Source of the DNA: Thermoproteota archaeon
Lineage (GTDB): Archaea; Korarchaeota; JAOZGF01; JAOZFZ01
DNA: 31,027 bases
Reading direction: 5' to 3'
NCBI GenBank assembly: GCA_027492035.1
Contig: JAOZFT010000003.1
Coordinates: forward strand, 1 to 31,027
Position numbers and translations under genes: made by a program
Part shown: positions 12,912 through 28,384 of the stretch, piece after piece
Numbering within the stretch: position 1 is the first letter of the stretch
Layout of the letters: every line of letters starts with the position of its first letter
The notes under the pieces: model-generated
Database searches by the model: none
What the model was told of the DNA's origin: nothing
What the model saw: the letters and a program-made list of their open reading frames with translations, nothing else

Positions 12912-15251
12912 GTGGAGAAAAAAAGGTTTTGGTTTCTTGATGTAACAAGGGAAATTTCAAAGGGGAAAAGTGAAATATGGGTTTGGGGTTTAACAGATGA
13001 CAAAAAAAGAATTCTTTTGATAAATAAAGACTTTAGACAAGTTTTTTTCTTAGCTTTTCAAAGTAAAGAAAGGGGGAAAGTGGAGAGTTTCCTTGATAAG
13101 TTAAGTAGTGAAGGATTGGTTATCTCTTACTCCTTTAAGGAAAAAAACCTTTTCGGGAAACCTTTACAAGGTATGGAGATAGAATGCACAGCCTTTTCGT
13201 TCAACGAAGCCGTTAAAAAAATGAGTAGGGAATTCCCAGCTTGCAAAATTTTTTTTGACGACATAAACTTCACACGGCAATACCTGCTTTTCAAAGATTT
13301 ATCTCCCTCTTCATGGTATGAAACTGAAGTAGAAAGGGGGGATATAAGCGATTGGGGAGAAACTTATTTCTTTAAGGAACTGAAGAAAAGGGAACCGGGT
13401 AAAATTCCAGATTTGCGAATTCTTTCCGCTGACTTTATTTACACAAGCTCTAAAGGTGAACCTAACCCTGAAAGAGATCCTGTAGCAATTATTTCTGTTG
13501 CCACCAGTAATGGGAGCAAGGAACAATTTATTTTGCGAGAAAATGAAAAGGAGCTTCTCCATAACTTTGTTTCTTTTGTGAAGAAGTACGACCCCGACAT
13601 AATTGTTACTTTCAAGGGGAATAGTGAACACTTCTTTTACTTAGTGGAGCGTTCAAGAAGACATGGTTTAGATTTAGGTTTGGGAAGAATGAATGAGCCC
13701 CCTCATCCTGGAATTTTTGGCCATGTTTCAATTTCAGGTAGGCTCCATTTCGACTTGAAAGACTACATAAACGAAATCCCTTCTATCCAACTCAAAACCT
13801 TGAAAGAAATGGCTGATTTCTTCGGTCTAACCTGTGAAAAACACATTGATGATTTTATGTTTCCAATTTACTGGCAAGAAGGAGATTTTAAGAGGGAAGA
13901 ACTGAGAAAATATTCCATATGGAGAGCTGAAACAATTCTTAAAGTGTTTAATTTAATTATGAACCAAGTTTTTACTTTATCCCAAATAACAGGATTGCCT
14001 GCTGATCAAGTTTTTGCGGCTTCGCCAGGGTTTAGGTTAGAAAATTATTTGATGCGGGAGGCTTTAAAAAGGAATGAATTAATACCTAAATCTGCAGAAA
14101 AATTTGCAAAACGTTACATTGGAGGAAAAGTTATTTCCCCTAAGCCAGGTTTACACTCAAAAATAGCAGTTATAGATTTTAAGTCAATGTATCCAAGTTT
14201 AATGATTAAATACAACATCTCTCCTGATACAATAATAAAAATTGGAGAGGCTGAAGAGGATTCCCTCAAAATTGAAGAGGCAAAAATAGCTATTCTTCAA
14301 AAAAAGAAAGGGTTTTTCACTCAAATACTTGAAAAACTTATAGAGGAAAGGGATTTAACCAAAAAGAGGTTGAAAGAAATAAGTCGGGAGTCTGTGGAGT
14401 ACTCCCTCCTGGATGTGAAACAGAAAAACCTGAAAATACTTGCTAATGCAATGTACGGTTACATGGGATGGACAGGTGCAAGATGGTTTGTTAGAGAAGG
14501 AGCTGAAGCTGTAGCTTTTCTGGGAAGAAAAACAATAACTGAATCAATTAACAAAGCTGAAGAATTAGGGCTGGAAGTTATTTATGCAGATACTGACAGC
14601 TTATTTGTAAAATATAATGAAGAAAAGGTTAACAAGTTAATGAATTGGGTTAGGGAAGAGTTAGGCTTAGAAATTAAAATAGACAAAATTTATGAAAAAG
14701 TGGTTTTTACAGAAGCGAAAAAGAAATACGCAGGAATAACTAGTAAAGGGGAACTGGATATAGTAGGTTTAGAAGTGGTCAGAAGTGACTGGTGCAACTA
14801 TGCAAGAGAAACCCAGAAAAAGGTGTTAGAAAAATTATTAATCGATACACCTATGACAGAAATATTTGACTTAATTAAAGAAAGAGTTAACCAGTTACAG
14901 CAGGGTAAATTTAAACTAGAGGATTTAATTATTTGGGAACAAATAACGCGTTCCTTGGATGAATATAAGGCAAATGCGCCACACATACAAGTAGCTAAAA
15001 ATTTGGTTGAGAAAGGGTGGGAAGTAAAGAAAGGAGATTTTGTAGGTTACGTAATTTGTAAGGGGGAGGGGAAACTGTTTCTAAGATCCAAACATTACAC
15101 TGAAGTGAAAAAAGAAGAAGTAGATGTTGAGTACTACATTAAAAAACAAGTAATTCCCGTCTGTACCCGAGTTCTTAGGGCATTAGGAGTTTCAGAAAAA
15201 CAACTTGAACAACTTATTTCAGTTAAAAAAGGACTAGAAGCGTTTTTCTAA
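12912..15251 (+). CDS. polB: Family B DNA polymerase with degenerate exonuclease site
   Basis: This 779-residue protein aligns along its length with archaeal replicative family B polymerases such as Pyrococcus Pol (775 residues). The polymerase site is intact: motif A DFKSMYPSLMIKYNISPDT (Asp 422), motif B KILANAMYGYMGWTGARW, and motif C YADTDSLFV (Asp 560, Asp 562). The proofreading site is not. Exo I reads SADFI (Asp 174 kept, the Glu replaced by Ile 176), Exo II reads KGNSEHFFYL (His 240 in place of Asp), and Exo III reads YSIWRAE (Arg 338 in place of Asp). It should polymerise without 3'-5' proofreading. The C-terminus KKGLEAFF resembles a PCNA-binding box with Lys for Gln. The start is a GTG with AGGTG upstream. 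It may be a repair or translesion polymerase rather than the main replicase. Confidence 0.9.
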   Translation: MEKKRFWFLDVTREISKGKSEIWVWGLTDDKKRILLINKDFRQVFFLAFQSKERGKVESFLDKLSSEGLVISYSFKEKNLFGKPLQGMEIECTAFSFNEAVKKMSREFPACKIFFDDINFTRQYLLFKDLSPSSWYETEVERGDISDWGETYFFKELKKREPGKIPDLRILSADFIYTSSKGEPNPERDPVAIISVATSNGSKEQFILRENEKELLHNFVSFVKKYDPDIIVTFKGNSEHFFYLVERSRRHGLDLGLGRMNEPPHPGIFGHVSISGRLHFDLKDYINEIPSIQLKTLKEMADFFGLTCEKHIDDFMFPIYWQEGDFKREELRKYSIWRAETILKVFNLIMNQVFTLSQITGLPADQVFAASPGFRLENYLMREALKRNELIPKSAEKFAKRYIGGKVISPKPGLHSKIAVIDFKSMYPSLMIKYNISPDTIIKIGEAEEDSLKIEEAKIAILQKKKGFFTQILEKLIEERDLTKKRLKEISRESVEYSLLDVKQKNLKILANAMYGYMGWTGARWFVREGAEAVAFLGRKTITESINKAEELGLEVIYADTDSLFVKYNEEKVNKLMNWVREELGLEIKIDKIYEKVVFTEAKKKYAGITSKGELDIVGLEVVRSDWCNYARETQKKVLEKLLIDTPMTEIFDLIKERVNQLQQGKFKLEDLIIWEQITRSLDEYKANAPHIQVAKNLVEKGWEVKKGDFVGYVICKGEGKLFLRSKHYTEVKKEEVDVEYYIKKQVIPVCTRVLRALGVSEKQLEQLISVKKGLEAFF

Positions 15252-15470: not shown

Positions 15471-17366
15471 GTGGGTAGTGGGAACAGTTCCGAACACTTG
15501 AAAAACTTTAAAGAAAATTTTCTTTCCTTAGCAATAAACGAGAGACTAAGGTGGAACGTAACAAAATTTTTCCTATTCTCTATCACTTCTTACTTCCTTT
15601 TTCAACTTTACCCCTTTTATCCAAGCCGTTACATTTTCCTTGTTTTTAACCCCGTCCTTTTCCTTGTAGCTTTTTTAGGTTTAACATCCCTTAAGTTCCC
15701 GAAAAAAACACTTGCTACTATGCTTATTCTCTTCCTTTTCCCCTCTATTTACCAAACACCTTCCCTAATCCTTATACATCTTTCTTTAGTTGCCTTTTTT
15801 ATTTTTATTTTAGCGTGGGAATTTGTGGATTGGTTAACAGTTGCATTAATTATTTTATCATTTGTTACAGCATTGAACAGCACTATTTGTTTTTTTTCGC
15901 CTGTACCTATTCTATTCTTGGGTCTCAAAAACCGTAGAGAAGGTATGATTGCTGGTTTAACTGCTTCTTTCTTCATTTCTGTTTATGTCCTATGTAACGG
16001 ATTTAAAGGAGGCTTTGTTTATATTCCTTCAAGCCTGTATATTTCAAAAATCACTTTTAAAACCCCGCCAATCCCTTTCAGAAAATATGCTCCACTCTAC
16101 TTTTTTAACACCTTAAGTGAAGCCTTCAAATTTGATAGTTTAATAACTTTCGGTAAAGCTTTGGCTGTTTTCATAGATGAGCCACAGTTACTGCTTCAAG
16201 TAGTTACTTGGGGGTTTGTTGGGTTTACGGAACTAGAACTTCTACGGAAAATGAAGGAAATCTTAAAATGGAAAGAAAAATTCTACCTAACTACTCCAGC
16301 TTCCCTACTAAGCTCAATTCTAATCCTTGCCTACTACATTCTTTATTCAAACAACGGCAACTTATACTACTTAACCCTCTTCCTTGCTTCAACTCTTTTC
16401 ATGTCGCACCTTTATGGTTACATGAAAGTAAAGAGTGAAACTACTAAATTAAAGTATTTAATGAAGGAGGGAAGGGAAGAACTGCAATTTTTAACAACTC
16501 AGCTGAAAAAGGAAAAAACCTTTTTTCAAAGATACCTTCTAGAACTAAACAATTTAAAAAAAGGCTTCGAAGACGCCTTAAAACTTTGTAGACAATGGGA
16601 GTTTGAAGAAGCTAGGCAAAAAATTAAAGAAACAAACAAAGAAGTCAAAAAACTCAGCAAAGAAATAACAAAAACAATTTCTGAAACTGAAGAAGTTAAG
16701 GAGACATTTGAAAACTTAGAGGTGCAATTAAATGAAGTTAAGGCGTTACTTGCTGAAAAAGAGCTGAAAATTAAATTAAACAGCTACCTGAAGGAAACCC
16801 AGAGCTTGGAAAATAAATTAAATGAATTAATAAGGGCATTTAAAACAGAGGGGTTAACTCCTAAGTTAAAAATGGGAATTAAATCCCTAAAAACAGAAAT
16901 TACAGAATTAAGGCATGGAATAAAAGAATTTTTGGGTTTAAGAAGTACAGTGTTAATAGACGGTTCAAATGTTGCGCTATATGGCACATCGGAAGGTGAA
17001 CCTGCAAAACTTGAAAACATAAAGTTGTTACTGAAAGAAGTGCATAGAAACGGTTTTGAACCTATAACCATTGTCGATGCAAGTTTAAGGTATAGAATAA
17101 ACAAAAGAGAAGAATTTCAATCTATGTTAAACAGCGGTGAAATACTTCAGGCACCTGCTAAAAGAGCAGCTGACGAATTTATCCTAGATTATGCTGACCG
17201 TGAAAATTTACCTGTGATAAGTAACGACACTTATAAAGAATATAGAGAAAAGTATCCTTGGGTGAATGAGCCAACAAGAAAAATAACTTTTATGATTATA
17301 GGGGAAACAGTTATTTTCAACCCCTCCCTTCAAACCTTGAAAAAGAGAAGAATTTTGACACAATAA
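15471..17366 (+). CDS. Membrane-anchored coiled-coil NYN (Zc3h12a-like) ribonuclease
   Basis: This 631-residue protein has three parts. Residues about 30-317 contain seven or eight membrane segments of no family I recognise. Residues 318 to about 480 are charged and heptad-like, a long coiled coil. Residues about 490-615 are a nuclease domain of the NYN/PIN superfamily closest to the Zc3h12a (regnase) type: LIDGSNVALYG with Asp 497 and Asn 500, VDASLRY with Asp 536, AADEFILDYA with Asp 568, and SNDTYKEYREKYPW with Asp 586. All the acidic residues expected for metal-dependent RNA cleavage are present, so it is predicted to be an active ribonuclease held at the membrane. The GTG start follows TTGGGGA by five bases. 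The Trm112-like gene begins 41 bases after the stop. Confidence 0.82.
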   Translation: MGSGNSSEHLKNFKENFLSLAINERLRWNVTKFFLFSITSYFLFQLYPFYPSRYIFLVFNPVLFLVAFLGLTSLKFPKKTLATMLILFLFPSIYQTPSLILIHLSLVAFFIFILAWEFVDWLTVALIILSFVTALNSTICFFSPVPILFLGLKNRREGMIAGLTASFFISVYVLCNGFKGGFVYIPSSLYISKITFKTPPIPFRKYAPLYFFNTLSEAFKFDSLITFGKALAVFIDEPQLLLQVVTWGFVGFTELELLRKMKEILKWKEKFYLTTPASLLSSILILAYYILYSNNGNLYYLTLFLASTLFMSHLYGYMKVKSETTKLKYLMKEGREELQFLTTQLKKEKTFFQRYLLELNNLKKGFEDALKLCRQWEFEEARQKIKETNKEVKKLSKEITKTISETEEVKETFENLEVQLNEVKALLAEKELKIKLNSYLKETQSLENKLNELIRAFKTEGLTPKLKMGIKSLKTEITELRHGIKEFLGLRSTVLIDGSNVALYGTSEGEPAKLENIKLLLKEVHRNGFEPITIVDASLRYRINKREEFQSMLNSGEILQAPAKRAADEFILDYADRENLPVISNDTYKEYREKYPWVNEPTRKITFMIIGETVIFNPSLQTLKKRRILTQ

Positions 17367-17880: not shown

Positions 17881-18363
17881 TTAAATTAACTTCTTTGCAG
17901 CTTCCTTTATGGCTTCAACTATTTTTATGTATCCTGTACACCTGCACAAGTTCCCTTCAATTGCTTCCTCTATTTCTTCTTGTGTAGGGTTCTTTTTTCT
18001 ATCAAGTAAATACTTCGCTGAAAGAATCATTCCTGGGGTGCAGAATCCACACTGAACAGCTCCCTTCTCTGCAAATGTTTCTTTTAATGCTTCAAACACA
18101 GGATCTCCTTTTAATCCTTCAACAGTTACAATGGTGGCGCCATCCACTTTAGGTGCCAAAACTAAACATGAATTTACAGGTTTACCGTTTAGAAGCACTG
18201 TACAGGCTCCACAGTCTCCTCTTAAACATCCCTCTTTCGGACTTCTAACTCTTAATTTTTTCCTAAGCAAATCTAATAAAGTCCAGTTTGGTTGAACATT
18301 CTTCACCACTTTTTCACCGTTTAATGTGAAACTAATGATTATTTCTTGTGTGTTCACTTGCAT
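17881..18363 (-). CDS. Molybdenum hydroxylase, [2Fe-2S] small subunit
   Basis: This 160-residue protein is the iron-sulfur subunit of a xanthine dehydrogenase-family enzyme. The plant-type cluster is bound by Cys 46, 51, 54 and 66 (GCLRGDCGACTV and NSCLVLA), the second cluster by Cys 105, 108, 140 and 142 (QCGFCTPGM and NLCRCTGY). It carries electrons from the molybdenum centre to the FAD subunit. It overlaps the end of the FAD subunit gene by ten bases and has GGAGGTGG just before the ATG, so it is translationally coupled and last in the operon. Confidence 0.92.
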   Translation of the reverse strand: MQVNTQEIIISFTLNGEKVVKNVQPNWTLLDLLRKKLRVRSPKEGCLRGDCGACTVLLNGKPVNSCLVLAPKVDGATIVTVEGLKGDPVFEALKETFAEKGAVQCGFCTPGMILSAKYLLDRKKNPTQEEIEEAIEGNLCRCTGYIKIVEAIKEAAKKLI

Positions 18364-19226
18364 TCCACCTCCCCCTTTAATGCCTTATTTATTGCTCTTT
18401 TAACAAAAACTTTCGACATTTCAGTCCTGTACTCCTTTGTTCCCCTAACATCCGTTATCGGTTTCACCTCTTTCTTCACAATCTCTGTGCCTTCATCAAT
18501 TTTTTTCTCTGTTACTTCTTTTCCTCTTAGGTAACTCTCTGTTTCTTTGGCTCTTATGGGTATTGGTGCAACAGCACCTAAAGCTATCCTTATGTCTTCA
18601 AATTCGGTATCTGCTTTTAAAAGAACTGCTGTACAAACTATAGACAGAGTATGAGCTTCTCTTCTGCCTAATTTAAGAAAAACACCTTTCATTTTTCCGA
18701 CTTCGGAAGGAATGTGAATCTCTCTAAGTATTTCGTTTCTTTTGAGTATTGTCTTGCCTGGGCCAAGGAAGAAATCCTTCACTGGAATCCTCCTCTCCCC
18801 TTTACTTCCCTGTATTAACAGTTCAGCTTCAAGAACAAGTAAAGGCGGTGCAGTGTCAGCTGCTGGTGAAGCGTTACACAGGTTTCCACCTATGGTTCCT
18901 AAGTTTCTTATTTGAGGCGACCCTAAATTCTTTACTGCTTGGACGAGAACGTTTGTTTTTTCATTTAAAATTTTTGAGTTCAGTATATCTGAATGAGTGG
19001 TAGCTGCCCCTATTTTTATATATCCCCCTTCTTCCCTTACAAAATTTAATTCATCAATAAAACTTATGTCAACCATTTTCTGCGGTGTATATTTCCCATC
19101 CCGAATTAAAGGTATTAAATCTGTTCCTCCAGCTATCACTTTTGCTTCTTTAAATTCATCCAGTAAAGAAATTGCTTCCTCAATTGTTTCAGGTTTATAA
19201 TAAGTAAATGGAGGTATTAGTTTCAT
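18354..19226 (-). CDS. Molybdenum hydroxylase, FAD subunit
   Basis: This 290-residue protein is the FAD-binding medium subunit of the xanthine dehydrogenase/CO dehydrogenase family. It has the family's FAD motifs AKVIAGGTDLIPLIRDG near residues 30-45 and NLGTIGGNLCNASPAAD near 107-125, then the CO dehydrogenase C-terminal-type domain. There is no extra [4Fe-4S] insert of the kind found in 4-hydroxybenzoyl-CoA reductase. The ATG at 19226 overlaps the stop of the large subunit as ATGA and has GAGGGAAAG upstream; a longer frame from 19253 would run inside the large subunit gene. Confidence 0.92.
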   Translation of the reverse strand: MKLIPPFTYYKPETIEEAISLLDEFKEAKVIAGGTDLIPLIRDGKYTPQKMVDISFIDELNFVREEGGYIKIGAATTHSDILNSKILNEKTNVLVQAVKNLGSPQIRNLGTIGGNLCNASPAADTAPPLLVLEAELLIQGSKGERRIPVKDFFLGPGKTILKRNEILREIHIPSEVGKMKGVFLKLGRREAHTLSIVCTAVLLKADTEFEDIRIALGAVAPIPIRAKETESYLRGKEVTEKKIDEGTEIVKKEVKPITDVRGTKEYRTEMSKVFVKRAINKALKGEVECK

Positions 19227-21586
19227 TTCTTTCCCTCTTTCAATTTGAAACAAACCTTTTCTTTCGTTAAAGGGAGATTTCTCACCCTAACTCCTGTGGC
19301 ATGAGCTACTGCATTTGCTATGGCTGGCGCTGTAGGAATTAAAGCGGCTTCCGCTACACCTTTGGCCCCGAAAGCTGTTGAACTGTAAGGTTTTTCAATA
19401 ATCACTACTTTTACTTTTCTAGGTACATCTTTAACTGTTGGAATTATGTAATCAGTGTAGTTTGGGTTAATTATTTTTCCGTCATTAAAGGCAACTTCTT
19501 CTGAAATAGCGTACCCTATTCCTTGAGCTAATGCTCCCTGCATTTGTCCTTCAATTAATCCTGGGTCAATTGCTTTTCCCACATCTGCTCCTGTGTATGC
19601 CTCTAAAACTTTAACCTCCCCTGTTTCTTTATCTACTTCAACTTCAACGATGTTAGCTATGTAAGTATATACGCAGTAAGCTACACCTAAACCTGTTTCA
19701 GGGTCGAAGTATCTTCTCGGGACAAAGTAGAAACCGTAATAAGCGGGTTGATATCCTCTCTGGTAGGTTTCTTTTGCCAACTCTGAAAATTCTATTTTAT
19801 TTGAAGGATCTAGGGCACAGAAAGCTTTTCCGTTCTCCAGCTTCACATTTTTTTCGTCGCAATTAAGAAGTTCACTTGCTAACTTTATGAGTGTCCTTCT
19901 TAGTTTTAAAGCAGCGTCTGCAGCTGCGGTTCCTCCAGTCATTAAACCCCTTGATCCATGTGTTGGGCGCGCATTTGGGGAAGCTGAAGTGTCAGGTTCC
20001 TCTATATGAACCCATTCCAAAGGAATGTCCAATATTTCAGCAACTATTTTTGCATGGCCTATTAAGGATCCTTGGCCGAGTCTTGTAATAGTTGAACGGT
20101 AAGTTATTGTTCCGTCTTCATTAAGTAGAACAGCTGCAGCCGACCAATCAGGAACTCCTCTGCTTGTGCTTATTCCATGGTAAGCGCAAGCTACACCAAT
20201 TCCTCTTACCTTGCTTCCTTTCCTATATTTTTTTAACTCCTCCCTCTTCTTTTTCCAGTTCGCGGCTTCAGCTACTTTTTTAAGTGTCTCTTCCATACCT
20301 ACAGACTCTTCCAGTAATTGATTGCAAACAGTTCTTGTTCCTTCTTTAAGTACGTTCCTCAGTCTAAACTCAACAGGATCTATTCCCAGTTTCTCAGCTA
20401 ATTCATCCATTTGTTGCTCAGCTGCAAAATGTATTTGCGGATCCCCAAAACCTCTGAATGAACCTGAAAAAACCTTGTTTGTGTAAACTGATTTTCCGTC
20501 AACTTTAGCGTTAGGTACAACGTAAGGGCCTGCAGAATGAACTGTTGCCCTCCACAAAACAAAGGGGCTTCTATTTGCATATGCACCTGTTTCGTAAATA
20601 ATTTCAATTTCAACAGCTGTTAATTTCCCATCTTTTGTGGCGCCAGATTTATACCTTATAATTGCTGGGTGTCTCTTGTTGCTTGCAACAAATGTTTCCT
20701 CCTTATCCAATATTATAGCTACAGGTTTTTTGGTTATGATTGCAGCTAAAGCAGCTTTTGATGCAACCATTGGCCCCATGTCATCTTTTCCACCAAAGGC
20801 ACCTCCAGCAGGGGCGCCTATCACTTTGATTTTGCTTTGAGAGTAACCTGTAACTCGAGAGACAAATTCCCTTACAAGGAAGGGGGATTGAGTGCATAAC
20901 ACAACCCTTATTCCATCTCCTTCCGGATAAGCTATTGCAGCTTCAGGTTCAAGGTAGGCGTGTTCCTGTCTTTGGGTATAATAAATGTTTTCCACAACTA
21001 CATCTGCCTCTTTGAATCCTTTCTCCACATCTCCCTTCCTAATTATGGTTGTTAAAGCTACATTGCCCTTTTCATGTACTTTCGGTGCTTCTGGCTTTAA
21101 AGCTTCTAATGGGTCAAACACTGCAGGTAATGGGTCGTATTCCACTTTGACGGCTTCAACTCCTTTTTCAGCAGCGTATTCGTTTTCAGCAACCACTATT
21201 GCTATAGGTTCCCCTATATACCTTACTTTCTTGTCAGCAAGTAACGGTTGGTCAGGTATGGCGTACCCTATCTGGTTTTCACCAGGCACATCCTTAGCTG
21301 TTATGACTGCAAGTACACCCTTAATTTGTAATGCTTCATCCACAATTACTCTTTTGATTAAAGCGTGAGGGTACTTGCTCCTCACTATTTTACCGAAACA
21401 AACATCTTCAGTTAACCTGTCAGCTGTAAACTTTGTTAAACCCATTATTTTACTAAAAGCATCAGGTCTCTCTATTTCCCTCCCTACTAACTTGTATTCT
21501 CCCTCTTCTTTGCCCAATTCTCTTTTAAAGAAGAACGGTCCCCTCTCTGCAGTTACCTCCCTTGTTTCAGTCAATTCGATATTCAC
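19223..21586 (-). CDS. Molybdenum hydroxylase, molybdopterin large subunit
   Basis: At 787 residues this is the catalytic subunit of a xanthine dehydrogenase-family enzyme that hydroxylates an aldehyde, N-heterocycle or similar compound using water. Seen are GAPAGGAFGGKDDMGPMVA near residue 265, the loop SGSFRGFGDPQ with Ser 374 and Arg 378, TRLGQGSLIGHAKIVAEIL near 510, and the C-terminal GAKGVAEAALIP with the catalytic Glu 746. CO dehydrogenase has a Cys in the loop (AYRCSFR); here that position is Gly 375, so it should not oxidise CO. The substrate is unknown and no maturation genes are in the window. The GTG at 21586 has GAGG only three bases away; a TTG at 21574 with GGTGA eight bases upstream is an equally likely start. 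Confidence 0.9.
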   Translation of the reverse strand: MNIELTETREVTAERGPFFFKRELGKEEGEYKLVGREIERPDAFSKIMGLTKFTADRLTEDVCFGKIVRSKYPHALIKRVIVDEALQIKGVLAVITAKDVPGENQIGYAIPDQPLLADKKVRYIGEPIAIVVAENEYAAEKGVEAVKVEYDPLPAVFDPLEALKPEAPKVHEKGNVALTTIIRKGDVEKGFKEADVVVENIYYTQRQEHAYLEPEAAIAYPEGDGIRVVLCTQSPFLVREFVSRVTGYSQSKIKVIGAPAGGAFGGKDDMGPMVASKAALAAIITKKPVAIILDKEETFVASNKRHPAIIRYKSGATKDGKLTAVEIEIIYETGAYANRSPFVLWRATVHSAGPYVVPNAKVDGKSVYTNKVFSGSFRGFGDPQIHFAAEQQMDELAEKLGIDPVEFRLRNVLKEGTRTVCNQLLEESVGMEETLKKVAEAANWKKKREELKKYRKGSKVRGIGVACAYHGISTSRGVPDWSAAAVLLNEDGTITYRSTITRLGQGSLIGHAKIVAEILDIPLEWVHIEEPDTSASPNARPTHGSRGLMTGGTAAADAALKLRRTLIKLASELLNCDEKNVKLENGKAFCALDPSNKIEFSELAKETYQRGYQPAYYGFYFVPRRYFDPETGLGVAYCVYTYIANIVEVEVDKETGEVKVLEAYTGADVGKAIDPGLIEGQMQGALAQGIGYAISEEVAFNDGKIINPNYTDYIIPTVKDVPRKVKVVIIEKPYSSTAFGAKGVAEAALIPTAPAIANAVAHATGVRVRNLPLTKEKVCFKLKEGKK

Positions 21587-24116: not shown

Positions 24117-25280
24117 TTGCAGGAGAAAGGTTTGACTGAAACTGAAATAATGGAAATAATTTCTGGAAAAGTGAAAAGTGACTTCACCTACGATTCAGGG
24201 CGGATTTTAAGCTCTATGTGCAGCAAACCAGATCGCTTAAGCATGAAAATTTATTCCATGTTTCTTGAAAAGAACTTAGGCGACCCCTTTCTCTTTCCTT
24301 CCTGCAAATTTTTTGAAGAAGAAGTAGTTAACATGTTAGGTGAGTTACTTTCAAATAAGAAGGCTGCAGGCTTCATTGTTTCGGGAGGAACTGAAGCTAA
24401 CATACTTTCTATGTGGGTCGCTGTTAAAAACTCTTCAGTTAAAAAACCTGAGGTTTTAGCACCTGAAACTGTCCATTTCTCTTTCGATAAGGCCTCAAGT
24501 CTTTTAGGGTTCCGCCTTATAAAAATAGGTTTAAATGATGAATTTCAAGTAAATGTTAACGAGATGAAGAAAAGGTTGACAAGTAACACAGTAGCTATTG
24601 TAGGAGTTGCAGGGTCTTCAGGGTTAGGTGTAGTCGATTCAATACCTGAGCTGAATGAATTAGCTGAAGAAAACCACCTTTATCTCCATGTTGATGCAGC
24701 TTTCGGGGGTTTAATAATTCCTTTTCTGAAAGAGGAGGGGGTTGAAGTACCGGACTTCGACTTTAAACTTTCCTCTGTCTCCTCAATCACGGTTGACCCG
24801 CATAAAGCAGGGTTCACTCCTATTCCTTCAGGTTGCATCCTTTTTAAAAACAAAGAGTTAATTGAAGATTTCGGTTTTGAAGTTAAGTATGGAATAGGGG
24901 AGACTTATAAACAAAAAACGTTGCTAGGTACAAGACCATGTGCAGCGACAATAGCTACATGGGCTGCTTTGAAACACTTGGGAAAGAACGGGTTCCGGGA
25001 AAGGGTGAAGTATTGTTTGAAATTAACGAATTATTTTGTTTCCAAAATAAAGAATTTTGACAGGGTTAAGCTAGTTGTAGCTCCCCAGCTTAACATTGTA
25101 GGTTTCAAAACTGTGGGCTTAGGTGAATCTTTAGTTGTTAAGAAGTTAAGGGAGAAAGGGTGGGGTTTAACTCTTTATAAAGATTTCATAAGAATTATTT
25201 TGCTTCCTCACATCTCATTTCAAAACCTGGAAGAGTTTCTTCATGATTTAAAAAATATTTTAAGAGGATTAAGAAAGTAA
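24117..25280 (+). CDS. mfnA: L-tyrosine decarboxylase, methanofuran synthesis
   Basis: This 387-residue PLP enzyme matches methanogen MfnA from end to end: MQEKGLTETEI at the start, SMCSKPDRLSMKIYSMFLE, GDPFLFPSCKFFEEE, the PLP-region SGGTEANILSMW, HVDAAFGGLIIPFL, and SSITVDPHKAGFTPIPSGC with the PLP lysine at 230. It decarboxylates tyrosine to tyramine, the first building block of methanofuran. In archaea without methanofuran the same family makes beta-alanine from aspartate for coenzyme A, but the mfnB, mfnF and mfnD genes next door favour the tyrosine role; it may do both. The start is a TTG with AGAGGGGG about ten bases upstream. mfnB follows 44 bases after the stop. Confidence 0.9.
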   Translation: MQEKGLTETEIMEIISGKVKSDFTYDSGRILSSMCSKPDRLSMKIYSMFLEKNLGDPFLFPSCKFFEEEVVNMLGELLSNKKAAGFIVSGGTEANILSMWVAVKNSSVKKPEVLAPETVHFSFDKASSLLGFRLIKIGLNDEFQVNVNEMKKRLTSNTVAIVGVAGSSGLGVVDSIPELNELAEENHLYLHVDAAFGGLIIPFLKEEGVEVPDFDFKLSSVSSITVDPHKAGFTPIPSGCILFKNKELIEDFGFEVKYGIGETYKQKTLLGTRPCAATIATWAALKHLGKNGFRERVKYCLKLTNYFVSKIKNFDRVKLVVAPQLNIVGFKTVGLGESLVVKKLREKGWGLTLYKDFIRIILLPHISFQNLEEFLHDLKNILRGLRK

Positions 25281-25324
25281 TTTCTTTAAGTGATTCCTTT
25301 CCAGGGAAGGTGGGAAATGAGGGA

Positions 25325-26032
25325 ATGAAGGTTTTAGTAAGTGTGAAAGATAAAGAGGAAGCTGTTGAAGCTTTAAATGGGGGAGCGCATATTATAGACT
25401 TAAAAAACCCAAGTGAAGGTTCATTAGGCCCCTGTTTCCCTTGGGTAGTGGAAGAAGTCATTGAAGCCGTTTCCGGGGAAAGGGAAATAAGTTTAGCGAT
25501 CGGGGACTTCACTTACTTACCTGGCACAGCCTCTCTAGCTGCTTTCGGGGCTTCTCACTTAAACATAAATTATGTTAAGGTGGGGCTTAAAACTAAATCT
25601 TTTGAGGAGGCTATTGACTTATTAAGTAAAGTTGTTAAAACCATCAAGAGTTATAACGGAAAAATAAAAATTGTGGCTGTAGGTTACGCTGACTATTCAA
25701 GAGTAGATGTTGTTCCTGTAGATAAAGTACCTGAAGTAGCAAGTGAAGCAGGAGCTCATGTTGCAATGATAGATACAGCCATAAAAGACGGGAAAAGTTT
25801 ATTCCATTTCTTGTCGAAAAAAGAAGTAAATAATTTCTTGGTTAATGCACGGAGGAAAAAATTGATGACAGCCTTGGCAGGCTCCTTAAAATTTAAGGAT
25901 TTGGCTTTAATTAAAAAACTGAAACCTGATGTGGTAGGTTTCAGGGGTTTAGCCTGTGAAAAGGGAGACCGTGTAAACGGTAGAGTTAAGCAAGAAAGAG
26001 TTAACGAAATAATTAATCTTTTACATGAATAG
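25325..26032 (+). CDS. mfnB: (5-formylfuran-3-yl)methyl phosphate synthase
   Basis: This protein condenses two glyceraldehyde-3-phosphate molecules into the furan precursor of methanofuran. With the ATG at 25325 it has 235 residues, the length of the Methanocaldococcus enzyme, and begins MKVLVSVKDKEEAVEALNGG. Lys 27 in IIDLKNPSEGSLG is at the position of the known catalytic lysine; Lys 85 (YVKVGLK) and Lys 154 (DTAIKDGKSLF) are the other conserved lysines of the barrel. The ending VVGFRGLACEKGDRVNGRV is also typical. A GTG at 25310 would add five residues. The gene is downstream of mfnA and converges on mfnF with 35 bases between the stops. Confidence 0.93.
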   Translation: MKVLVSVKDKEEAVEALNGGAHIIDLKNPSEGSLGPCFPWVVEEVIEAVSGEREISLAIGDFTYLPGTASLAAFGASHLNINYVKVGLKTKSFEEAIDLLSKVVKTIKSYNGKIKIVAVGYADYSRVDVVPVDKVPEVASEAGAHVAMIDTAIKDGKSLFHFLSKKEVNNFLVNARRKKLMTALAGSLKFKDLALIKKLKPDVVGFRGLACEKGDRVNGRVKQERVNEIINLLHE

Positions 26033-26067
26033 TAAATTCCTTACCTTGTTTTACATTTTTTCCTTCC

Positions 26068-27159
26068 TTAAATACTCCATCTCCTCTTAACTTCCTCTCC
26101 ACTTATTATCTCTTCCTTAACGGCTGTCAACAAAGCTAAACCTGAAACAGGAGCAGTAATAAAGGCTGCCTCCTTCAACTTTTCAGGTAAAGTAATTATT
26201 TTTTGGAAGCCAGCTTTTTTAGCAGCCTCTCCTGCTAAAAAACTCCTTCCCAAGCCTGTAGTCACAATTGATATTGGGTTTTTGGAATTTTTCACTTGTG
26301 CAAATCTTGACGAAACTTGTTTCAACCCTTCAACTATTTGATTAATTTGTTCCATGTAAATATAACTACAGATGCTGATTATCTCCCCCTCATTCAACAT
26401 CCCTAAATCGGCACAAATCACTCTCGCCACTCTAGCCATAGCCTCCTTCCTTGTTTTCCCTCTTCCATCAGCTGTTTCTGTGGAGTAACTTTCTTGGCTA
26501 ATGTGGCCAAGCAATAAATGGACATCTCCCGAAAGAGCGAAAACTTCAGAGGAAACTCTTGAAAAGAAACCTTTCACAGGTACTTTTTTCGTTATAGTGG
26601 CTATGTTTGTCCTGAGAGAACCTGTATACACTAATTCGCCACATATAAGCTTTTCTAAATCAGTTTTTCCTTTTGCAACGATTTTTCCGTTAAAAACAGG
26701 AATAATGCTGGTAGTTGTGCTTCCTACGTCTATTACTATACAGTTTTTGTACCAGTTTGCAACAAGCCATCCTGTAGCCACCCAATTCGCTGATGCCACC
26801 TCTAAATGACCTTTTTTAGCTGTTTCAGGTGTAACTAGTTCCCCTTTAACATTTAAGACAGAGATTGGGAACTTTGGAAAAACCTTCTCCACACACTCAA
26901 TTACGTGGTTAACCCCTTCCCTTTTAGTGAAGTAGGCATCTGAAAGTTCAGCTGTCATTGTTAAACCTACTGCTTCAAATTTTTCAGACCCTAATTTTTC
27001 GGTAACATCCTTGATTGCTCTTTGAAGAGACTCCTTACCTCTTCTCCAAATTGGGAAGTAAAGTTTAGCTGTTTTCAAACCAATTATTCTATTTTTCTTT
27101 ACTTCTAAAGCTGCAGCCTTAATGTTTGCGCCTCCAACATCTAAAGCCAAAACTTTCAT
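26068..27159 (-). CDS. mfnF: MfnF-family methanofuran precursor synthase
   Basis: This 363-residue protein belongs to the sugar kinase/hydantoinase-like fold family that includes MfnF, long annotated as an H4MPT-linked C1 transfer pathway protein. It opens with VLALDVGGANIKAAALEV, a phosphate-binding loop, and has a second, VIDVGSTTTSIIPVFNGKI, near residue 150, and TGLGRSFLAGEAAKKAG near 300. MfnF joins the aminomethylfuran diphosphate unit to glutamyl-tyramine, the coupling step of methanofuran synthesis. The ATG at 27159 follows GGTGG by eight bases and lies four bases after the mfnD stop, so the two are translationally linked. Confidence 0.87.
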   Translation of the reverse strand: MKVLALDVGGANIKAAALEVKKNRIIGLKTAKLYFPIWRRGKESLQRAIKDVTEKLGSEKFEAVGLTMTAELSDAYFTKREGVNHVIECVEKVFPKFPISVLNVKGELVTPETAKKGHLEVASANWVATGWLVANWYKNCIVIDVGSTTTSIIPVFNGKIVAKGKTDLEKLICGELVYTGSLRTNIATITKKVPVKGFFSRVSSEVFALSGDVHLLLGHISQESYSTETADGRGKTRKEAMARVARVICADLGMLNEGEIISICSYIYMEQINQIVEGLKQVSSRFAQVKNSKNPISIVTTGLGRSFLAGEAAKKAGFQKIITLPEKLKEAAFITAPVSGLALLTAVKEEIISGEEVKRRWSI

Positions 27160-27163
27160 TCTT

Positions 27164-28384
27164 TCAGCCACCAAGAAAGGTTTCTATTTTCTTTTTAACC
27201 CGTAATAAATTGTTTCTAGCTTCTCTCCTTCCTTCACCGTAACCTGTAATTAAAACATAGTTACTTTTCTCTCCCTCAAATAAAGGCATCGGAGGGACTT
27301 CCACCCCCTCTAATCTACTTTTCAATATCTCATTTGAAAAATTGTATGGTACCTTAAGCTTAAGGAAGTAGGTGAAACCATGTGTCTCAATTTTCATCGG
27401 CAATTTCTTTTTTAGGACAGCATCCATGATTAAACGGGGAGTATTTGCGTCTAAAACCTTGCTTACACCCACATAAGAAGTTGTTAGTCTAGGATTTATT
27501 TCCACAATGAATGAAGCATCTTTTGTTAAAACTAAATCAACACCTACGTATCCCCTTAATCCCTTAAAGAGTTTAATTGTTTTCGAAACATTTTCTAAAG
27601 CCTCTTTTTGTGAATTCACATGTAAAGGGGTTAAGCCTCCCTTGTAAATTGAAGAACTATTAGGCCCCCCTAAATTTAGAAACTGATAGTTAAGGGTTAG
27701 AGGAATAATTTTTGAACCGTTAGAAATTAAACTAACACTTGCATTTATTCCCTTAATGAATTCTTGGACAACTACCCCCTTCTTATAAATTTCCTCCTTT
27801 TTAAGCTTCTTTAAAGCAAGCTTTATTTGAGATTTACTTTTTACGACTTGGATTCCAGAACAACCAACCCCTTCCACAGGTTTAAGAACAAGGGGTAAAT
27901 TGAATTCCTTCAAAACTTTCATTGCTTCAAGAGTGTCAGATGGGTTCTTAATGAATTCAGTGAATGGAGTATTTACCTTCCCTCTTCTAATTTTCCTGTA
28001 AAAATTCATTTTGTTCCTTACATTTTTTATAGCTTCAACTGAACAGTTTAAGGAAAGACAATTATCTGTAAGTAAAGACACTTTCTCCTCAAGTACGCCT
28101 GAACTTTCAGGGGCAATAATGTATGAAGCATAGAAATCATGTGTTTCAACAAGTTCTTTAAGTGAGAGACCCTGCGAAGAGACAACTTCTACATTCCCAA
28201 CTTCTTTTAAAACTTTAAATTTTATAAGGGAAGGGGAGAGAACAGTTGTAACTTGATAACCTGCTTTGACGAAGTCTTTCAGCAAAGTTTTTAACATGGC
28301 TAAACCTTCACATAAAATGCTTGAGGTAACTGTTTTGTTAATTGAGGCGTAAGCTGAAGCAAACTCGAAAACAAAAACTTTCAT
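27164..28384 (-). CDS. mfnD: Tyramine-L-glutamate ligase, ATP-grasp
   Basis: This 406-residue protein is an ATP-grasp ligase. The lid and ATP-binding part shows LPLVLKPVEGVGCSGIQVV near residues 165-180 and VVVQEFIKGINASVSLISNG near 207-226; the metal-binding end is VGVDLVLTKDASFIVEINPR, with the Glu and Asn of the EINPRLTTSYVG motif. Matched to the MfnD family and its neighbours, it should join glutamate through its side chain to tyramine, the product of MfnA. The ATG lies 12 bases after AGGAGG. The next gene upstream is divergent, with only 37 bases between start codons. Confidence 0.88.
   Translation of the reverse strand: MKVFVFEFASAYASINKTVTSSILCEGLAMLKTLLKDFVKAGYQVTTVLSPSLIKFKVLKEVGNVEVVSSQGLSLKELVETHDFYASYIIAPESSGVLEEKVSLLTDNCLSLNCSVEAIKNVRNKMNFYRKIRRGKVNTPFTEFIKNPSDTLEAMKVLKEFNLPLVLKPVEGVGCSGIQVVKSKSQIKLALKKLKKEEIYKKGVVVQEFIKGINASVSLISNGSKIIPLTLNYQFLNLGGPNSSSIYKGGLTPLHVNSQKEALENVSKTIKLFKGLRGYVGVDLVLTKDASFIVEINPRLTTSYVGVSKVLDANTPRLIMDAVLKKKLPMKIETHGFTYFLKLKVPYNFSNEILKSRLEGVEVPPMPLFEGEKSNYVLITGYGEGRREARNNLLRVKKKIETFLGG

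Follow-up and report, generated by a model that had tools for sequence, protein, structure and literature searches.

The window (the whole 31,027-nucleotide stretch of archaeal DNA analysed here) encodes a 631-residue protein that we interpret, with a probability of roughly 0.55, as a membrane-anchored, metal-dependent single-strand endoribonuclease that would cut RNAs at the membrane. This interpretation is preferred because the protein belongs to the NYN nuclease family and has its acidic set intact, because a heptad periodicity was detected in its arm, and because the charge distribution predicts a cytosolic nuclease. It is also preferred because membrane-anchored NYN relatives (Heimdallarchaeia, Pyrodictiaceae and others, and the protein L251) show matching charge patterns, and because of the proteasome/RMMBL linkage of the Heimdallarchaeial genes, the housekeeping neighbours of the window gene and the absence of a confident defence match.

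Gene and overall architecture

The open reading frame begins with GTG, runs over 631 codons with no internal stop and is present as a single copy in its 1.87 Mb archaeal genome. It contains, in this order, a polytopic membrane region, a helical arm and a C-terminal NYN nuclease (Table 1), so that the membrane segments, coil and nuclease which a sequence-only reading had assigned to one protein do lie in one uninterrupted frame. That reading had named an assembly join between the membrane and nuclease parts as a possible objection. The GC3 of the three gene parts ranges from 0.27 to 0.34, within or adjoining the range of the neighbouring genes (0.28–0.35), and does not suggest that foreign pieces were joined; on the codon score the membrane part (0.07) falls short of every neighbour (0.10–0.20), as might be expected from its composition. 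An assembly join is unlikely.

Table 1. Positions of the features discussed, in window coordinates unless a locus is given
Feature	Position	Strand	Basis or description
Whole gene: polytopic membrane region, helical/coiled-coil arm, C-terminal NYN nuclease	15471..17366	+	631 aa
Residues 1–32, predicted N-terminal cytosolic tail	15471..15566	+	5 K/R, 3 D/E; positive-inside rule
Residues 31–318, polytopic membrane region with 8–10 predicted hydrophobic segments	15561..16424	+	Hydrophobicity scales; low-confidence helices in the full-length model
Residues 320–485, coiled-coil arm in continuation of the final membrane helix, with possible breaks near 404–407 and 461–463	16428..16925	+	Heptad test, model helices
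Residues 492–618, Zc3h12a-like NYN nuclease domain (PF11977)	16944..17324	+	Pfam profile, fold model, structure comparison
Asp 497, first metal-binding Asp	16959..16961	+	Aligns with MCPIP1 D141 and KHNYN D443; invariant
Asp 536	17076..17078	+	Invariant in the 35-sequence archaeal set; aligned ZC3H12C residue not acidic
Asp 568	17172..17174	+	Equivalent to KHNYN D524
Asp 586 of the SND motif	17226..17228	+	Equivalent to KHNYN D543
L250: outside coil, TM, short inner coil, NYN	L250:3147-4778		544 aa
L251: one TM, strong coil (z 6.1), NYN	L251:3365-4123		253 aa

The NYN nuclease domain

A profile search for NYN/PIN families, the check proposed in the sequence-only reading, matched the C-terminal domain to Pfam RNase_Zc3h12a (PF11977) with an E-value of 1.1e-17 (64.7 bits, against a curated cutoff of 23). 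The AlphaFold model of the domain has a mean pLDDT of 90, and its closest structural match is MCPIP1/Regnase-1 with Mg (3v34; Z 15.5, 2.3 Å over 136 residues). Structure comparison ranks MCPIP1/Regnase, ZC3H12B/C and KHNYN first (Z 14.6–15.5), followed by the protein-only RNase P (PRORP; Z 11–13.5), and a profile of archaeal NYN domains recovers the same human proteins by sequence, with E-values from 2e-11 (ZC3H12C) to 7e-10. Profile and predicted fold thus agree with the Zc3h12a-type domain first supposed, and the protein is a member of this family, with RNA cleavage as its predicted activity. Assignment to PRORP is disfavoured, as a Pfam scan of the protein returned no PPR match and the nuclease is nearer to Regnase and KHNYN.

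The window protein was aligned with 34 homologues from named records, which are archaeal, one being labelled a bacterial MAG. Seven positions are invariant among the 35 sequences: D497, N500, D536, D568, S584, N585 and D586. Asp 497, Asn 500, Asp 568 and Asp 586, named earlier as all the expected acidic residues, are where they had been placed and belong to this set; the list overlooked Asp 536. The roles of the acidic residues in the eukaryotic enzymes have been described (PMC5943514, PMC12709174), and in KHNYN and ZC3H12B they form a tetra-Asp motif that includes two neighbouring aspartates, a DD pair (PMC12709174). A tetra-acidic site can be recognised in the window protein, with D497, D568 and D586 present, E569 at the second position of the DD pair and D536 invariant. 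That second position is occupied by His, Lys, Asp or Tyr in other archaeal sequences, and Asp 536 is found in 74 of the 90 members of a wider NYN set. From its conservation, Asp 536 may complete the active site or take part in catalysis.

With Regnase-1/MCPIP1, ZC3H12B/C and KHNYN the window protein therefore shares the Pfam family, the predicted fold (Z about 15, 2.3–2.8 Å), three aspartates of the tetra-Asp site, the NYN asparagine and the SND motif. It differs from them in the replacement of the second DD-pair aspartate by Glu 569, at a position that varies in archaea where Asp 536 does not, and in carrying a polytopic membrane region and a coil instead of a detectable CCCH zinc finger or KH domain.

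The membrane region and the coiled-coil arm

Multiple membrane segments had been claimed, and ten 19-residue segments between residues 33 and 318 pass the threshold on one hydrophobicity scale, two of them weakly, which gives the 8–10 predicted segments; a stricter scale retains six, so the exact count is uncertain. The strongest are 33–51, 55–73, 98–116, 124–142, 160–178, 273–291 and 300–318, and the protein is predicted from them to be inserted in the membrane. The charges make the last hairpin clear-cut: six K/R lie in the loop 259–272, no K/R occurs in the stretch joining the final two segments, and KVK comes after the second of these. By the positive-inside rule, this distribution places the arm and the nuclease, and also the loop 259–272, on the predicted cytosolic side. 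Searched alone against 296 other archaeal genomes, the membrane region gave no match better than E 1e-3; only short, chance-like matches were found, and it is therefore assigned to no family.

The coiled coil of about 160 residues proposed earlier is borne out by the heptad core score of residues 320–485, which is 0.639 against 0.501 ± 0.031 in shuffled sequences, with none of 2000 shuffles reaching it. When the two halves are scored separately the signal is weaker and only moderately significant (28 and 37 of 1000 shuffles reach it), and it is absent from the control regions, the NYN domain and a stretch of PolB. The full-length AF2 model, also suggested at the outset, contains helices at 298–403, 408–460 and 464–487, and the membrane and coil parts are of low to moderate confidence. 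The break near 404–407 would make an intramolecular hairpin possible, as well as a parallel dimer. Mid-protein matches to SMC, Rad50, LmuB and DruC were attributed to coil similarity and rejected. Outside the NYN domain the full-length model is of low confidence, and Foldseek matches to those parts were for that reason not considered meaningful.

Comparison with bacterial RNase Y

RNase Y, which serves here as an analogy for a membrane-anchored nuclease (PMC9775385, PMC11313650), comprises an N-terminal transmembrane region, a parallel dimeric coil and KH and HD domains (PMC9775385). The likeness to it drawn in the sequence-only reading holds for the order of the parts, an N-terminal membrane anchor, a long coil between membrane and nuclease (residues 320–485) and a C-terminal nuclease predicted to be cytosolic, as well as for the statement that the KH and HD domains are unrelated. 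It fails for the anchor, which consists of 8–10 hydrophobic segments (residues 33–318) and not of a single N-terminal TM helix. The window protein does not qualify as an RNase Y, since KH and HD domains were both sought by Pfam scan and neither was found, the C-terminal domain being NYN. The two proteins lack homology and the comparison is an analogy of layout only.

Membrane-anchored NYN proteins in other archaea

Searches of the phylum's 28 other genomes yielded neither the full protein nor a PF11977 match. Whole-protein searches of the class, the phylum, phages and the genome contigs returned no orthologue, NYN searches of viral contigs returned no relative, and the same architecture, a search for which in other archaea had been proposed, was not seen among the 28 relatives or the other NYN proteins retrieved. 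Among what was searched, no second case of the exact architecture has so far turned up, for which reason conservation cannot vouch for its membrane and coil parts, and the protein is linked to other membrane NYN proteins through the NYN domain only.

The suggestion of membrane tethering in archaea fared better: although the exact architecture has no orthologue, tethering itself recurs. PF11977 was found in 46 of 394 sampled archaeal genomes. In the phylum to which a Heimdallarchaeota-type genome (G343) belongs, 95 of 227 genomes carry it; in that of the Pyrodictiaceae genome 4 of 398 do, and all five NYN proteins of this last sample were read as having an N-terminal or internal membrane segment. 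Many NYN architectures occur among the archaeal proteins read, including three further kinds of membrane anchoring. The Heimdallarchaeial kind (L127-L142, L241-L243), of about 580 residues, has an N-terminal signal-like segment, a beta-type domain predicted to lie outside, one TM and a C-terminal NYN domain. It resembles the window protein in its anchoring, in the acidic residues and in a charge pattern that fits a cytosolic PF11977 domain, and differs from it in the signal-like segment, the outside domain, the single TM and the lack of a long coil. Pyrodictiaceae and relatives (L116, L118, L119, L253) have one TM followed by NYN in about 205 residues; in L252 the N-terminal hydrophobic stretch is slightly weaker, scored by hand at 1.56 where the threshold is 1.6. 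Two coil-bearing membrane NYN proteins, L250 and L251, are encoded in genome G798, and L251 is, by analogy, the closest RNase Y-like layout seen. The Pyrodictiaceae-type proteins and L251 share with the window protein an N-terminal anchor and a nuclease read as cytosolic, together with a coil in L251, but have a single TM and 200–253 residues instead of a polytopic region.

In a tree of the NYN domain (90 rows, 129 columns; low resolution), the membrane-anchored kinds do not group together, and the window protein joins none of their clades. The raw number of changes in tethering is five, which is too high because the membrane label of L057, whose hydrophobic stretch sits in an ATPase-like region, is probably false and because L252 was labelled soluble; the corrected minimum is three, across weakly resolved forks. 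In our reading of these sequences there may have been three separate origins: one in Heimdallarchaeia with the L250/L251 genome, one in Pyrodictiaceae and relatives, and one in the lineage of the window protein. This suggests that archaea repeatedly placed the nuclease at the membrane, in several ways. A search of the open-access literature turned up neither an account of NYN proteins anchored in archaeal membranes nor a paper on NYN ribonucleases of Heimdallarchaeota; one table of a paper on pseudomurein includes an orthologous group with the annotation "Zc3h12a-like ribonuclease NYN domain" (PMC11915815).

Genomic context

In 14 of 21 Heimdallarchaeial loci (L127, L128, L130, L132, L133, L135-L140, L142, L177, L181) the NYN gene lies in a block with an unknown gene and the proteasome beta and alpha genes; 12 of the 14 blocks continue with a metallo-hydrolase that carries an RMMBL RNA-specificity domain. 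The gene between NYN and the proteasome genes is conserved, encodes about 236 residues and has no Pfam match. In the divergent locus L242 proteasome genes are nearby on the other strand, and locus L165 ends after the unknown gene. The linkage with proteasome and RMMBL genes fits a role in turnover or quality control.

The window gene lies between PolB, upstream, and a Trm112-like protein, downstream, among fumarase subunits and metabolic genes. No defence gene was recognised among the neighbours, and PADLOC gave no confident match outside the coil, its matches being confined to the coil with an E-value of 7e-5 at best. In relatives, neither NYN nor any other conserved partner was found between Trm112 and PolB; the fumarase–PolB order is kept in a relative of the same family (G001), whose contig ends just after PolB. 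Two RNase PH-family genes stand in tandem in the same genome, the arrangement expected of exosome Rrp41/Rrp42; an endonuclease contributed by the NYN protein would thus supplement an existing system and not replace it.

Proposed function and alternatives

In the endoribonuclease interpretation, the polytopic N-terminus would fix the protein in the cytoplasmic membrane, the helical arm would oligomerise it and/or hold the nuclease off the membrane, and the cytosolic NYN domain, whose fold and residues are computed, would cleave RNA with Asp 497, 536, 568 and 586. The most likely task would be the cutting of membrane-protein mRNAs, or of RNAs from stalled translation, at the membrane, after which the exosome or other exonucleases would finish off the fragments; the function would be akin to that of RNase Y, without kinship. 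Against it speak the singleton architecture, the NYN tree, in which the protein stands apart from the membrane-anchored clades, and the neighbours PolB and Trm112, which give no pointer to RNA decay.

The main rival, which we consider distinctly less probable, is a membrane sensor with an RNase effector, in which the polytopic region would sense the state of the membrane or envelope, as altered for instance by virus entry or exit or by stress, the coil would relay the signal and the NYN domain, once switched on, would stop growth or attack foreign RNA. The polytopic region is far larger than an anchor needs, the modelled helix is continuous from the last TM into the coil, a singleton distribution is typical of accessory genes, and the Heimdallarchaeial and L250 relatives carry large outside domains; NYN domains also occur in CRISPR and antiviral systems (PMC11346440, PMC12709174). 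What weighs against such a sensor is the housekeeping nature of the neighbours, the weak, coil-only PADLOC matches, the lack of a relative in phages or viral contigs, and the lack of a conserved sensor fold among the matches found.

It is improbable that the protein is a processing enzyme for stable RNA (tRNA, rRNA or 7S RNA) that is incidentally membrane-bound, even though the NYN/PIN fold is common to protein-only RNase P, PRORP comes next in structural similarity, the downstream gene is Trm112-like, and the membrane could host the processing of SRP RNA or of membrane-bound ribosomes. The Regnase/KHNYN matches are clearly better, Trm112 adjoins no NYN gene in relatives, and a universal step in processing is made less likely by the lack of the gene in the other genomes of the phylum. 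Least probable is a fusion without present function, or an artefact joining a membrane gene to an NYN gene: the full architecture has no orthologue, the membrane part has no homologue and its codon score is lower, but the frame is open throughout, GC3 is close to that of the neighbours in all parts, the active-site residues are intact, a predicted helix spans the last TM and the coil, and the charge pattern is consistent with a real topology.

How and where mRNA decay starts in archaea is poorly known; in bacteria it often relies on endonucleases bound to the membrane, RNase Y among them. Beyond the single protein, we tentatively advance a broader idea, which may well prove wrong: archaea would hold a convergent counterpart of RNase Y, a membrane-tethered Zc3h12a-like NYN protein with at least three origins, which would start RNA decay or quality control at the membrane and is linked to the proteasome in Heimdallarchaeia, which belong to the Asgard group nearest to eukaryotes. 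If so, membrane-localised RNA decay in archaea would become directly testable through a membrane-tethered Regnase-like family, and the domain of animal Regnase-1 and KHNYN would seem to have been tied to turnover machinery already in archaea. The conserved Heimdallarchaeial NYN–proteasome block is a concrete lead.

Other NYN proteins and other genes of the window

Several further NYN architectures were observed. Four proteins of 507–511 residues (L035, L036, L038, L039) apparently lack the acids aligned to Asp 568 and Asp 586 and are, from the alignment, probably inactive nucleases; a control search for this type also matches Methanocaldococcus jannaschii. In the Methanophagales/Methanosarcinales-type proteins (L111-L115, L117) the N-terminal segment of about 110 residues looks OB-fold-like and has no Pfam match. 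In the phylum containing Heimdallarchaeia, NYN is fused to TPR-like repeats and to AAA ATPase-like, helicase-like and Rad50-like parts (L229-L240), which were assigned by eye.

The upstream PolB (12912-15251) is a family-B DNA polymerase of 779 residues, one of two in the genome; its identity is 56% in the family relative and about 30% in most others, and it is well conserved in only a few of the phylum's genera. A three-gene molybdopterin dehydrogenase operon of the xanthine/CO dehydrogenase type, with FeS, FAD and molybdenum subunits, occupies 17881-21586 on the reverse strand, with an AsnC-type regulator nearby. At 24117-28384, genes for a PLP decarboxylase, a 4-HFC-P synthase, a hydantoinase_A family protein and an ATP-grasp protein adjoin one another in what looks like a methanofuran biosynthesis cluster.
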